A stretch of DNA of 64,000 nt from Defluviitaleaceae bacterium (GTDB lineage: Bacteria > Bacillota > Clostridia > Lachnospirales > UBA5962), in the NCBI GenBank assembly GCA_009779915.1, contig WRBA01000003.1:62001-126000 (forward strand), written 5' to 3'. Below, piece by piece: positions 7,286 through 11,727 of the stretch (position 1 is the first letter of the stretch; each line of letters begins with the position of its first letter). A model generated the notes under the pieces. It saw only the letters and a list, made by a program, of their open reading frames with translations. It was not told where the DNA came from and searched no databases. Both the position numbers and the translations under genes were made by a program.

Positions 7286-8308
7286 ATGGACAACAGAAAC
7301 AAAAGGAACCGCTCCATATTCGAGAAAAGAGGTTTTTATATGGCTCTTTACTCATGTATTGGGGCGGTTCTTGTGCTTGCTATCGGCATAACTTACACTA
7401 CCATGAATAGGGGTAGAGCAGATACAGTAAGCAGACATATTAGACAAGAAAGCCCACCTTTAGCAAATTTGGCACCAGGGATAGTGGGGTATAATTTGGC
7501 AGAGCATAACCACGCCCATAATCACAATCATGTGGATAGGAGCCTTCCGGAATCTAACCATCAAAATGGACAGCCTGTAGAAAATCCGGCAGCAGCACCG
7601 GGGCAGACAGATCAGGCAGCAGCTCCACAGCCTGGGGCACCGCCGGCAGGAACACCGGCAGATAACGAGGTTCCCCGAAACGGTACCGCCTATATAGCGG
7701 GCGCAGATGCCTTGCCTGTATCATTGCCGATGTCCCAAACTTTGGATGATGTGAGAGCAAGAAACGAAGAGAATCAAGATGCTCCCACTGAAGCGCAGCC
7801 TCCCGCGACAGAACAAGCCGTTGCTGAGTGGGATGATGATCCATTAGCCCATGAAGGGGTTTTAGCGGATCCGGTATTTAATATTTTCTCAGGCAGCGAT
7901 GACATGATCTGGCCTGTAAACGGCGAAATTGTAATGGATTTTAGTATGGACAGGCTGATTCATGATGTAACCCTAAACCAGTTTAGGACAAATGATAAAG
8001 TAAGTATAGCAGCCACAATAGGCACTCAGGTTAGGGCTGCCGCTGATGGGATTGTAAGAAGTATAACAACAGACAGGCGATTAGGTAATACAGTAGTAGT
8101 AGAGCATGGAAATGGCTGGTTCACTACATACAGCCAGCTGCAAGATCATATTCTTGTAGAAGAAGGAGATGTAGTGGTAGAAGGACAAGTAATTGGCGGC
8201 GTAGGTGAACCTAGTATATTCTATACTTTGCTGGGAAGCCATCTTTCATTTAGAGTAATGCGTGATGATACGCCGGTTAATCCTATGATAGTACTATCAA
8301 CAAACTAA
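7286..8308 (+). CDS. SpoIIQ-like membrane-anchored degenerate M23 (LytM) protein
   Basis: A 340-residue protein with a short basic cytoplasmic N-terminus, one membrane segment (about residues 19-40), a long low-complexity linker rich in Pro, Ala and Gln with a His cluster (HNHAHNHNH), and a C-terminal LytM/M23 fold (about 205-335: WPVNGEIVMDF, GTQVRAAADGIV, GNTVVVEHGNGWFTTY). The zinc-binding motifs are degraded: the usual HxxxD stretch is replaced by TNDKVSIAA, and the usual HxH is HLS. It is therefore likely non-catalytic, as in SpoIIQ of Bacillus, where the domain scaffolds the forespore-mother cell channel. Family assignment is inferred from architecture. GGAGGTG precedes the ATG. Confidence 0.7.
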   Translation: MDNRNKRNRSIFEKRGFYMALYSCIGAVLVLAIGITYTTMNRGRADTVSRHIRQESPPLANLAPGIVGYNLAEHNHAHNHNHVDRSLPESNHQNGQPVENPAAAPGQTDQAAAPQPGAPPAGTPADNEVPRNGTAYIAGADALPVSLPMSQTLDDVRARNEENQDAPTEAQPPATEQAVAEWDDDPLAHEGVLADPVFNIFSGSDDMIWPVNGEIVMDFSMDRLIHDVTLNQFRTNDKVSIAATIGTQVRAAADGIVRSITTDRRLGNTVVVEHGNGWFTTYSQLQDHILVEEGDVVVEGQVIGGVGEPSIFYTLLGSHLSFRVMRDDTPVNPMIVLSTN

Positions 8309-8636
8309 AGTTTGCAGGGGCTGATACATTTGTGTCAGCCCTTCTATAGTCCTTTCTTCTCGACCTCATTTCAAATGAAACTGAGGTTTCCGCACCGATT
8401 AACAGTTTTTCTTTCTGACGCACTTTTGCAGGCAAGGCGATAAAATGAGTCCCATCACCCATAGGCAATAAAGATGTTGCCCAAGCGGAGCTGCCTATTT
8501 TTGCCGTAACTGCAATTAGACCACGATCCGCAAGGAACTCTAAAGGCTTACTTAAATCCGTTGGTACTGATACATAATGCCAGCCTTTTTCCCGCTCAAA
8601 CAGTTCAACCTTTGCCGTAAAGGTACTATCCATCAT
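8283..8636 (-). CDS. DUF1905 domain protein
   Basis: 117 residues. The N-terminal ~90 residues fit DUF1905 (FTAKVELFEREKGWHYVSVP, later GSSAWATSLLPMGDGTHFIALP). In many proteins this domain is fused to a C-terminal OmdA (YdeI/OmpD-associated) domain; here that half is absent, and a separate OmdA-like gene sits at 39838. The last ~28 residues (from RSRRKDY) are encoded across the terminator hairpin and the 3' end of the convergent gene and look like a read-through tail. It follows the broken methyltransferase with a 3-base gap. Confidence 0.7.
   Translation of the reverse strand: MMDSTFTAKVELFEREKGWHYVSVPTDLSKPLEFLADRGLIAVTAKIGSSAWATSLLPMGDGTHFIALPAKVRQKEKLLIGAETSVSFEMRSRRKDYRRADTNVSAPANFSLLIVLS
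8313..8345 (+). terminator. Hairpin between convergent genes
   Basis: GGGCTGATACA and TGTGTCAGCCC pair around a TTT loop just after the stop of the SpoIIQ-like gene. The following T-run is broken, so termination strength is uncertain. The minus-strand DUF1905 frame reads through it. Confidence 0.5.
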
Positions 8637-8639
8637 AAA

Positions 8640-9509
8640 TCACCTTTTCCTCCTGCATACAAAAATAATCTCACGACCTTCCGGGACGCATGGGCTTTTA
8701 TCATACCATGAAAACTCTTCCGCTACAACAAATCCACATTTTTCCACTAAAGCGCGAAGCTGGGAGCTATAATAATATTTCATTTGCAGGGGTTCGACTA
8801 ATCTTTCTGTACGTCCATCAGGGTAGTTAACAACATATACAAGGCTTGGGTAGAGAATTTGGTTTTGGGTGTCAATTTTCTCACGAATTTCGTAACGCCT
8901 TATACATATGCCGCTTTTTTCGTCCGTTATTTTGCCGATAAAACTTTCCACCCGGCACCGAGTGCGAATTTAAACTTCCATAAGTTTAGAATATAGTTTA
9001 AATTCGCACCAGCTTTCGTCAAGAGGGTTTTTGTAGGGGTTAAAAACATTTAGGATGAAAATGCCGTCGTCCGTTAAATGCTCTCGGGCGCAATTAAGGG
9101 TATTTTCAATATCGTCCTGTGCCGTTACAGCTTGGAAAGCACGGAAAGGAGCTGTAATCAGCACGAATTTCTGCCCCAAAGAAAAGTCAGCCATATTGTC
9201 GTGGATGATTTTTACACGGTTAGTCAGTTCCGGATGCTTTGCCACTTCTTTTGCCAGTTTTTCCCTAAAAATACCCAACATATCCTGTGATAAATCCAGT
9301 CCTATGATGTTAAAGCCTTCTTTAGCCAAAGACAGTGCAACCCTCCCTGTGCCGCAGCCAAGTTCGAGGATTTTGCCGCCTTCACCACACTGCTGCTTCG
9401 CATACTCAATATAAAAGGGGATATCCGGCAAGGGCTGGTTCTTTTCGTGTTCTATATCGTATATCCACGCAGTTTGACGCCATAAATTTTTATTTTTATT
9501 GCTTTCCAT
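8640..9509 (-). pseudogene. SAM-dependent methyltransferase interrupted by a 51-base palindromic insertion
   Basis: The 5' part (start 9509, MESNKNKNLW, with GGGAGG upstream) encodes a class I methyltransferase: motif I ILELGCGTGRVAL, then GLDLSQDML, and DNMADFSLG. Translation meets TAA at 8972-8970 after LDESWCEFKLYSKLMEV. The downstream piece (GTG at 8951) is in the same frame and continues with VESFIGKITDEKSGICIRRYEIR and YVVNYPDGRTERL, the C-terminal part expected for the same protein. Removing 51 bases (8960-9010) joins SWC directly to RVESF and gives one 272-residue protein. The start overlaps the stop of the upstream methyltransferase (TAATG). Likely inactive, or expressed as two fragments. 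Confidence 0.75.
8960..9010. mobile_element. 51-bp palindromic insertion inside a methyltransferase gene
   Basis: On the plus strand the insert is flanked by a direct repeat GCACC (8955-8959 and 9006-9010), as expected for a short target duplication. Its body is an inverted repeat, GTGCGAATTTAAACT against AGTTTAAATTCGCAC, around a short centre. It adds 17 codons, one of them TAA. No other copy was noticed in the window. Confidence 0.6.
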
Positions 9510-10318
9510 TAGATTTTCCTCCCAACATACATTAAATGTTCCGACCAGCTTAAAAGTTCCTCCCGCTCCCAAGTTTTTTCGCATAATGAAAGCCATAAAT
9601 CAATTATTTCTTTTGGCTGAGACATAATGTTGCTCTCACAGGGGGATGTAAGCCCTTCTTGCCCGAAAAGATGGAGCAGCTCAAGAGGGAACTGTGCCAT
9701 AAAAGGCAGTACTTCACTTTGTTCAATGAAAAAAGCTTGTGTAAAAGCCGCTCCCCCTTTGCTTTTTTTATTAATGAAACTTTCCAAAAATCCCGATTCA
9801 AAGGAGTCGGTAGATGCAACATATTCAGGGGCAAACTTCATGCAATAGATGATGCCGCCCATCATGCTGATGAATGAAACAAAAATGACCCCACCCGGCT
9901 TAAGCAAGTTTAGTGCCGCGTTGACTGCTTTTATGCGGTCAGCCTCTTCTAATAAATGGTACAAAGGACCCATGAGGAGTATATAGTCAAACTGTTCATT
10001 AACCAATTTATCAGCTTCACGGGCATCACCTGTTATTGTTTGTATGTAAAGCCCTTGCTGTGCGGATTGCGCCTTTGCAAATTTAGTATTCTCCTCTGAT
10101 AAGTCAAACAAAGTTACATTACAGCCTTTCTCCGCAAGGTATAATGAATACCGCCCGGGACCGCCACCAATGTCAAGGACTTTGTCCTCTGGTTTTATAT
10201 ACCGCTCAAGCATACGGCAGGTTAAAAGAAACTCCGGACGGTTGGCTATACGCATCCATTCAACTTCAACACCATTGTTGTAAAAATCCCGTACTGTTTT
10301 TGTTGTTGTATCCATCAT
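9509..10318 (-). CDS. Class I SAM-dependent methyltransferase under an attenuator
   Basis: 269 residues with a Rossmann methyltransferase core: motif I VLDIGGGPGRYSLYLAEKG (about 47-65), acidic motif VTLFDLSEEN, TGDAREADKL, motif IV DYILLMGPLYHL, and LLKPGGVIFVSFISMMGG. The C-terminal part (FFIEQSEVLPFM, later ELLSWSEHLMYVGRKI) matches a cytosolic class I methyltransferase family of Firmicutes. AGGAGG lies directly before ATG, at the foot of an intrinsic terminator. The gene is preceded by a leader ORF and terminator (10335-10501), so its expression is probably set by attenuation. The methyl acceptor is unknown; the control mode makes an antibiotic- or translation-related substrate a reasonable guess, but nothing in the protein proves it. 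Confidence 0.85.
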   Translation of the reverse strand: MMDTTTKTVRDFYNNGVEVEWMRIANRPEFLLTCRMLERYIKPEDKVLDIGGGPGRYSLYLAEKGCNVTLFDLSEENTKFAKAQSAQQGLYIQTITGDAREADKLVNEQFDYILLMGPLYHLLEEADRIKAVNAALNLLKPGGVIFVSFISMMGGIIYCMKFAPEYVASTDSFESGFLESFINKKSKGGAAFTQAFFIEQSEVLPFMAQFPLELLHLFGQEGLTSPCESNIMSQPKEIIDLWLSLCEKTWEREELLSWSEHLMYVGRKI

Positions 10319-10334
10319 GTTTTCCTCCTAAAAA

Positions 10335-10369
10335 TAAAAAAGCGACTAAGGTTTAAATGCCTTAGCCAC
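10335..10369 (-). terminator. Intrinsic terminator acting as attenuator of the methyltransferase
   Basis: In transcript sense: GTGGCTAAGG (10369-10360), loop CATTTAAA, CCTTAGTCGC (10351-10342), then a run of T. The U-run ends 6 bases before the AGGAGG of the methyltransferase, so termination here would cut off the gene. A segment in the leader ORF (10433-10427, CTTAGTC) can pair with the left arm (GGCTAAG) and would block the stem. Confidence 0.8.
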
Positions 10370-10405
10370 TTGATGGTTTTATAATATGAGTACAATAACT
10401 ATGTA

Positions 10406-10501
10406 TCATTTATAAAAAGCCAAAAGGACTAAGCCTGTGAACGGATTATTCCCAGACATAGTCCATTTATCAAAATTACGAACTTGCGTAAAATTATTCA
10501 C
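10406..10501 (-). CDS. Leader peptide, 31 residues, upstream of attenuator
   Basis: GTG start at 10501-10499 with AAGGAG 9 bases upstream; stop TGA at 10408-10406. The peptide contains NFTQVRNFDKWTMSGNN in its first half and ends GLVLLAFYK. Codons 23-26 (G-L-V-L) cover the segment that can pair with the terminator's left arm. A ribosome finishing the peptide would mask this segment and allow termination; a ribosome stalled in the first half would leave it free. This is the arrangement of ribosome-mediated attenuation seen before several antibiotic-resistance genes. Too short for routine gene calling. Confidence 0.75.
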   Translation of the reverse strand: MNNFTQVRNFDKWTMSGNNPFTGLVLLAFYK

Positions 10502-10529
10502 AATGCTTACTCCTTTCTAAACAATTAGA

Positions 10530-10535
10530 ATTATA
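10530..10535 (-). promoter_or_regulatory. -10 box of the leader/methyltransferase transcript
   Basis: TATAAT in transcript sense, placing the start of RNA about 22 bases before the leader GTG. No good -35 hexamer is seen, so the promoter may be weak or activator-assisted. Confidence 0.45.
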
Positions 10536-10569: not shown

Positions 10570-11727
10570 TTACTCCATCCAGCCTTTAAGTTTCTCATGT
10601 GCTACTTTAAGCTCTTCGATAATATTTATTTTTTGCGGGCATTTTGGTTCACATTCGCCGCAGCCTACACATTTATCAGCTGATTTGCCGCCATTTGTTT
10701 GGAACATATATGTCCTTCTTGGCTGGTCAAAACTTTCAAACATCATACCTTCGTTATATTTTGAAAAAGTGCCGGGAATATCAACATTATACGGGCAAGG
10801 CATACAATAGTCGCAGGTAGTGCACGGCACTGTGACTATAGATTTATATGCAGCCCTAGCTTGTACGATTATATTTTTTTCTTTATCGTTTAAGCAATTT
10901 GGAATCATATCAGGCTTACTAAAAAGCTCAATATTTTCTTTAAGCTGCTCCATGGTTGTCATACCGCTTAAAATTGTATTTACTTGAGGTAAATTTACAA
11001 GGTGGCGGAAAGCCCATTCAGCCGGCTTTCTATCCTTGTCATAGGAATCATAAATTGTTTTAACACTCTTAGGCGCATTGGCAAGACCGCCTCCGCGAAG
11101 AGGCTCCATAATAGCAACCGCTAAGCCTTTTTCAGCGGCGTCAAATACAGCCTGCTCAGTAACCTCATAGTCAATATCAAGCATATTTTGCTGGAGAAGG
11201 CACATATCCCAAGGCACGTGATGAAGTGCTTCTTTAAACAAATCATAAGGACCATGGATAGAAAAGCCTACAGCACCTACAAGCCCTTCTTCTTTAAATT
11301 TGAAAAATTGCTCGCAAATTTTTCTGGCTTTCATTTCTTCCCAACTGTTTGATGCAATCATATGGACTATGTAAATATCTATATAATCCGTTCTAAGCTT
11401 TTTAAGGGTAAGTTCTAAATTTTTGCGGATATCCGCATCCGTTTCCATAAGGCGCAGAGGTAGTTTTGTGGCTATTTTAACTTTTTTGCGAAGCTCCCCT
11501 TCAAGTGCTTCCCCTAATATTTCTTCAGAGGTTTGTTTATGGTATACAAAAGCGGTATCGAAATAATTTACACCGTTTTGGGCAGCATAGCGGATAAGCT
11601 CATAGGCTTTTTCCCTATCAACGGGCGCGCTGTCAGGTGCGTGTCCTACCATTCGCGGCAAACGCATACAGCCCATGCCTAAAAGCGATACTTCATAGCC
11701 CAAATTGCCAAACTTACGATATTGCAT
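10570..11727 (-). CDS. Aldo/keto reductase with C-terminal ferredoxin-like domain
   Basis: 385 residues. An N-terminal TIM-barrel aldo/keto reductase (LGMGCMRLPRM; catalytic tetrad candidates Asp and Tyr in NYFDTAFVYH, Lys in KIATKLPL, His in IYIVHMI) is joined to a cysteine-rich C-terminus: CTTCDYCMPCPYNVDIP and CVGCGECEPKCPQ, the latter a CxxCxxCxxxCP [4Fe-4S] motif. This fused form is common in Clostridia and is thought to take electrons through Fe-S clusters. Substrate unknown. AGGAGG precedes ATG. A MITE-like element lies 24 bases upstream of the start. Confidence 0.88.
   Translation of the reverse strand: MQYRKFGNLGYEVSLLGMGCMRLPRMVGHAPDSAPVDREKAYELIRYAAQNGVNYFDTAFVYHKQTSEEILGEALEGELRKKVKIATKLPLRLMETDADIRKNLELTLKKLRTDYIDIYIVHMIASNSWEEMKARKICEQFFKFKEEGLVGAVGFSIHGPYDLFKEALHHVPWDMCLLQQNMLDIDYEVTEQAVFDAAEKGLAVAIMEPLRGGGLANAPKSVKTIYDSYDKDRKPAEWAFRHLVNLPQVNTILSGMTTMEQLKENIELFSKPDMIPNCLNDKEKNIIVQARAAYKSIVTVPCTTCDYCMPCPYNVDIPGTFSKYNEGMMFESFDQPRRTYMFQTNGGKSADKCVGCGECEPKCPQKINIIEELKVAHEKLKGWME

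Follow-up and report, generated by a model that had tools for sequence, protein, structure and literature searches.

In the window (the whole stretch of 64,000 nucleotides that was analysed), the minus strand carries three operon genes, the first two for methyltransferases, which follow a short leader open reading frame (ORF) and an intrinsic terminator. An aldo-keto reductase gene lies upstream on the same strand and ends at 10570. The features are as follows.

10535-10530, minus strand: putative -10 box TATAAT, from the sequence
10515-10510, minus strand: ribosome site AAGGAG of the leader
10501-10406, minus strand: leader ORF MNNFTQVRNFDKWTMSGNNPFTGLVLLAFYK, GTG start, 31 codons
10457-10464, minus strand: segment 1 (anti-antiterminator) GGACTATG, partner of segment 2
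10427-10435, minus strand: segment 2 (5' arm of the antiterminator) GGCTTAGTC, which holds CTTAGTC (10433-10427)
10410-10417, minus strand: left arm of the bridging stem UUUUAUAA, between segments 2 and 3
10377-10384, minus strand: right arm of the bridging stem UUAUAAAA
10360-10371, minus strand: segment 3 (5' arm of the terminator and 3' arm of the antiterminator) AAGTGGCTAAGG
10331-10351, minus strand: segment 4 CCTTAGTCGCTT and the T-run of the intrinsic terminator
10324-10329, minus strand: ribosome site AGGAGG of methyltransferase 1
9509-10318, minus strand: methyltransferase 1, ATG at 10318, 269 amino acids (Pfam)
8640-9510, minus strand: methyltransferase 2, second operon gene, 58% identical to the intact gene at locus L002
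8283-8636, minus strand: DUF1905 protein, third operon gene, 117 amino acids (Pfam)

The original prediction, made from the sequence of the window, had described the -10 box, the AAGGAG, the 31-residue ORF, the terminator, the complementary pair CTTAGTC/GGCTAAG and the methyltransferase ribosome site, and every one of these parts lies where it had been placed. The terminator consists of a 12-bp stem (10371-10340), which includes GGCTAAG (10367-10361), and the T-run that follows (to 10331). In the folded free RNA, the AAGGAG of the leader pairs with CCUUUU immediately 3' of segment 2. The -35 region of the promoter is poor, and for that reason the TATAAT site is omitted by the promoter scan.

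Chance level of the signals

The free leader folds with -54.8 kcal/mol (z = -4.5), and none of 200 shuffled sequences was as good. The 7-base match between CTTAGTC and GGCTAAG, on which the original prediction had built, is present, but as evidence by itself it does not exceed chance: dinucleotide shuffling of the leader produced a run of at least 7 bases complementary to the left arm of the terminator in 210 of 300 cases, the real leader having a run of 8. We therefore dropped this pairing as stand-alone evidence. The full switch behaviour was seen in 7 of 300 shuffled leaders and, with slightly less strict cut-offs, in 6 of 120, and is thus an event of about 2-5%. Because the key pairing alone is not above chance, the comparison with homologous loci was decisive; conservation at related loci is what raises the switch in the window above chance.

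Distribution of the attenuator

The search for homologues of methyltransferase 1 covered one genome collection as well as whole genomes from the same order, the same class and two families. The same leader precedes orthologues of methyltransferase 1 (68-74% identity) at three loci, L002 (from a Defluviitaleaceae MAG; L009 is the same contig), L004 and L011. A fifth copy, L024, was found with a covariance model built from the four orthologous loci; there the attenuator precedes a methyltransferase that is 28% identical, a distant paralogue, followed by a GNAT acetyltransferase gene. A sixth locus, L017, was recognised by inspection and carries a diverged form in front of a 47% identical methyltransferase: it has GGCTTCCGTCG where the others have GGCTTAGTCG, with segments 3 and 4 altered to match. 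Its ORF has 37 codons, and its start codon lies 69 nt from segment 2, a spacing that is 65-78 nt at the other five loci with the leader ORF. A predicted ribosome site, a start codon and an ORF of 29-37 codons are present at all six loci.

The attenuator is absent upstream of the close homologues L010, L012 and L015, and none of the homologues of the L024 methyltransferase (L040-L052) has it. Plasmids and phages, searched with the leader DNA, yielded no related locus, and neither did viral contigs, against which two proteins and two DNA patterns were run. Weak matches to the covariance model at L025, L026, L028-L035, L053 and L054 were rejected as plain terminators or chance matches lacking a leader. 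At L006 and L007, the similarity was limited to the ribosome-site stretch. We also rejected L005/L027, where a terminator-like remnant without a leader stands ahead of a broken ORF. The L005 sequence (1500-1590) has a terminator and a ribosome site resembling the 3' half of the attenuator, including TATAAAACCAT, and is perhaps a decayed copy. At L016, which encodes a 62% identical methyltransferase, a 17-codon ORF and a terminator are found, and masking of the leader creates no antiterminator in the folding prediction. The short leader of this locus, MRRKNGWNDMFCIKYNI, is a different one; together with a strong terminator it lies roughly 100 nt ahead of the methyltransferase, which is possibly under independent regulation.

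Conservation of the RNA and of the ORF

All 9 columns of GGCTTAGTC are invariant among the four orthologous loci, compared with 9 of 34 for the leader codons 5' of segment 1. The sequence of the leader peptide differs among the loci and is not conserved. The codon frame of CTTAGTC also differs, being frame 2 in the window and L002 and frame 0 in L004, L011 and L024; what is kept is therefore the RNA, not the peptide. The leader ORF nevertheless remains open through CTTAGTC, its stop codon lying 14-18 nt beyond at the four orthologous loci and 35 nt beyond in L024. These sequence patterns point to selection on the RNA and on its being translated rather than on the peptide. The original prediction had looked to homologous loci for a conserved leader peptide together with covarying stems; the pairing and the ORF were indeed kept, and the peptide was not.

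In the five-locus alignment, which was fitted to the structure and so favours pairing in L024, 92% of the cells are paired and 4 pairs are changed on both sides; its covariation score was reached by 1 of 500 shuffles, and slid versions of the alignment drop to 26-57%. By element, the helix of segments 1 and 2 is 83% paired, with one pair that is C-G, A-U or G-C depending on the locus, the bridging stem is 91% paired with two two-sided changes, and the terminator stem is paired in 98% of the cells. Covariation between segments 2 and 3 was no better than in shuffles among the four closest loci, where it is uninformative because this pairing hardly varies. Support for the antiterminator comes instead from L017, in which the pairing segments have changed together: its segment 3 pairs well with its own segment 2 (-11.2 kcal/mol) and poorly with those of the other loci (-4.4 to -7.6 kcal/mol). 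Each of the six loci shows the alternative pairings.

Folding predictions and the proposed switch

For the fold test, a ribosome was placed at codon k, all RNA as far as its leading edge was masked, and segment 4 was left out as not yet made. When segment 1 was masked in this way, the predicted probability of the antiterminator was about 0.9-1.0 at all six loci. The stall codons predicted to give the antiterminator were 9-18 in the window, 11-17 in L002, 11-18 in L004, 14-21 in L011, 12-18 in L024 and 6-18 in L017. With a ribosome at codons 1-8 of the window leader, segment 1 is predicted to stay free to sequester CTTAGTC. The original prediction had placed the effective stall in the first half of the leader; this fits for codons of about 9-18, and the model argues against codons 1-8. 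In the folds computed for both states, as that prediction had envisaged, masking of the leader forms the antiterminator, and the alternative pairings are predicted at all six loci.

In the free RNA, segment 2 is sequestered by upstream sequence with a predicted probability of 0.85 in the window and 1.0 in L011. L002 and L004 have a weak anti-antiterminator, the upstream sequestration is weaker at these two loci and in L024, and in the free leaders of all three the pairing of segments 2 and 3 is favoured about half the time or more; at these three loci, the off state must therefore rest on ribosomes translating through segment 2 of the leader or on kinetics. The conserved AU-rich bridging stem is predicted to persist in both states and to draw the arms of the antiterminator together.

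These data would fit the following mechanism. In the free leader, or in the leader behind a ribosome that has finished, segment 1 would pair with segment 2, so that segment 3 would be available to segment 4 for the terminator, and the operon would be off. With a ribosome stalled at roughly codons 9-18, segment 1 would be covered, and the bridging stem would position segment 2 close to segment 3 for pairing; no terminator would then form, and RNA polymerase could read through into the methyltransferase genes. Termination, readthrough and the ribosome stall are events that we infer from this model. The reading of the locus as an attenuator in which a stalled leader ribosome frees the antiterminator and turns on the methyltransferase is well supported by the sequences and predicted folds of the six loci.

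Candidate signals and other explanations

The predicted stall zones of the six leaders contain no R/K-X-R/K arrest motif and no shared peptide that would name an inducer, and no leader has a run of codons for a single amino acid. The Ala, Ser and Thr residues of the stall zones were not used as a sign of chloramphenicol-like arrest, some of these codons being dictated by the segment 1 RNA.

An attenuator that is real and senses a cue unrelated to antibiotics, for instance scarce charged tRNA or a general slowing of translation, with enzymes serving metabolism or stress responses, is in our view unlikely. Such a cue would agree with the missing antibiotic stall motif, with stall-zone peptides that vary by locus and with methyltransferases that match generic families only. 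However, codon runs like those of biosynthetic attenuators are absent in every leader, the operons contain no biosynthetic genes, and a cargo of methyltransferases and acetyltransferases resembles modification enzymes.

A riboswitch binding a ligand or metabolite, with the short ORF present by chance, is improbable. It would share the terminator, the antiterminator and the conserved bridging stem, and the Rfam trpB motif (RF04312) matches weakly, at 30 bits vs the gathering threshold of 59 bits. Yet no Rfam family reached threshold within the window, an aptamer-like conserved loop is lacking (5 of 23 loop columns are invariant), and the six loci have a ribosome site, a start codon and an ORF that stays open beyond segment 2 in spite of the frame shift. 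The remaining explanation, a plain terminator of the aldo-keto reductase gene with the complement and the ORF due to chance, would suit the nearby end of that gene on the same strand and the frequency of 7-base complements, but it is contradicted by the comparative data and hardly credible: upstream genes vary among the loci, which indicates that the terminator moves together with the methyltransferase, and spacing is matched and changes are compensatory across loci.

We thus return to the ribosome-mediated transcription attenuator that would hold an operon of modifying enzymes off unless translation of the leader stalls, a reading to which we assign a probability of roughly 0.7. Most likely, this RNA switch, present in different bacteria at a total of six loci, turns the enzymes on only upon stalling of the ribosome, much as antibiotic-inducible resistance genes are controlled.

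Relationship to known attenuators

As in bmrB/hflXr-type leaders, a predicted leader ORF with a ribosome site lies upstream of the gene at the six loci, an intrinsic terminator stands between leader and gene, and mutually exclusive antiterminator and anti-antiterminator structures overlap the ORF. In Bacillus subtilis, the bmrB leader of bmrCD allows readthrough under lincomycin, erythromycin or chloramphenicol (PMC4191407); its layout is alike, with a leader ORF over the anti-antiterminator and antiterminator and then a terminator, whereas that terminator lies inside the leader ORF and the cargo is an ABC multidrug transporter. In rli80/hflXr (lmo0762) of Listeria (PMC6310831), the anti-antiterminator, antiterminator and terminator come in the same order and a small ORF spans the anti-antiterminator, but the leader has 14 codons with an RLR macrolide motif, and the cargo is a ribosome-splitting factor. 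The leader peptide of B. subtilis tlrB (yxjB) likewise governs termination before a methyltransferase (PMC6851288). It differs in its 9 codons, its RYR motif, the lack of an identified overlapping antiterminator and additional translation attenuation. The enzyme there, RlmA(II), methylates 23S rRNA and belongs to a family absent from the matches of methyltransferase 1. The drug-induced cplR of Clostridioides difficile (PMC10201436) shares a clostridial leader ORF and an intrinsic terminator; unlike in the window, its ORF has three codons, the terminator hairpin also hides the ribosome site, and the cargo is an ABC-F factor.

The element apparently forms a new family of this known kind of regulator (bmrB, hflXr, tlrB and cplR leaders). 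The original prediction had suggested an undescribed system, and this apparently holds, as no Rfam family reached threshold and the literature searched contained no description of it.

Attenuators with such a layout flag genes that are needed only under ribosome trouble, and following them has yielded real resistance factors (hflXr and ABC-F genes). The occurrence of the attenuator on methyltransferase 1, and again on a distant paralogue, makes these enzymes candidates for coping with translation inhibitors. By analogy with known leaders, the trigger of the stall may be an antibiotic that targets the ribosome, or a comparable translation stress, and the enzymes may be protective through modification of either the drug or the ribosome. 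A drug-inducible resistance operon of Clostridia, in which the attenuator would respond to ribosome-targeting antibiotics by switching on methyltransferases of a new class that modify antibiotics or ribosomes, frequently accompanied by methyltransferase 2, DUF1905 or GNAT partners, is a tentative proposal that we consider possible but lean against.

Methyltransferases and operon partners

Methyltransferase 1 is a class I SAM-dependent enzyme (Pfam Methyltransf_25, E = 1.7e-18), with matches confined to generic families of the Methyltransf_25/11 type. None of the curated NCBIfam families scored above cut-off, and the protein models of Erm, Cfr and RlmA(II)/TlrB gave no match. Since no rRNA methyltransferase family matched methyltransferase 1, action on rRNA and a role in resistance find no support there. 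A PADLOC mad2 match was rejected as due to the generic methyltransferase domain alone. The nearest solved folds are mixed, mostly small-molecule and peptide SAM methyltransferases; in the structure model, the Rossmann core is confident and the C-terminal part weak, and the fold search was uninformative on the target because the model is weak beyond the core.

The operon partners recur in varying combinations: the window has methyltransferase 2 and the DUF1905 gene, L002 has methyltransferase 2, L004 has DUF1905 plus a gene called GNAT-like from its sequence alone, and L024 has GNAT beside its own distant methyltransferase; in L011, the methyltransferase gene stands alone. This mix of small modifying enzymes would suit detoxification more than housekeeping. 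DUF1905 genes follow methyltransferase genes at two loci (8283-8636 in the window and L004:328-675).

In the window, methyltransferase 2 is broken by a 48-bp palindromic repeat with an in-frame stop. This near-perfect palindrome (GTGCGAATTTAAAC...GTTTAAATTCGCAC, 8962-9009) belongs to a family of which the same genome has some 20 near-full-length copies, 84-92% identical, along with numerous half copies. The family is MITE-like or REP-like, and some of its copies lie near each other.
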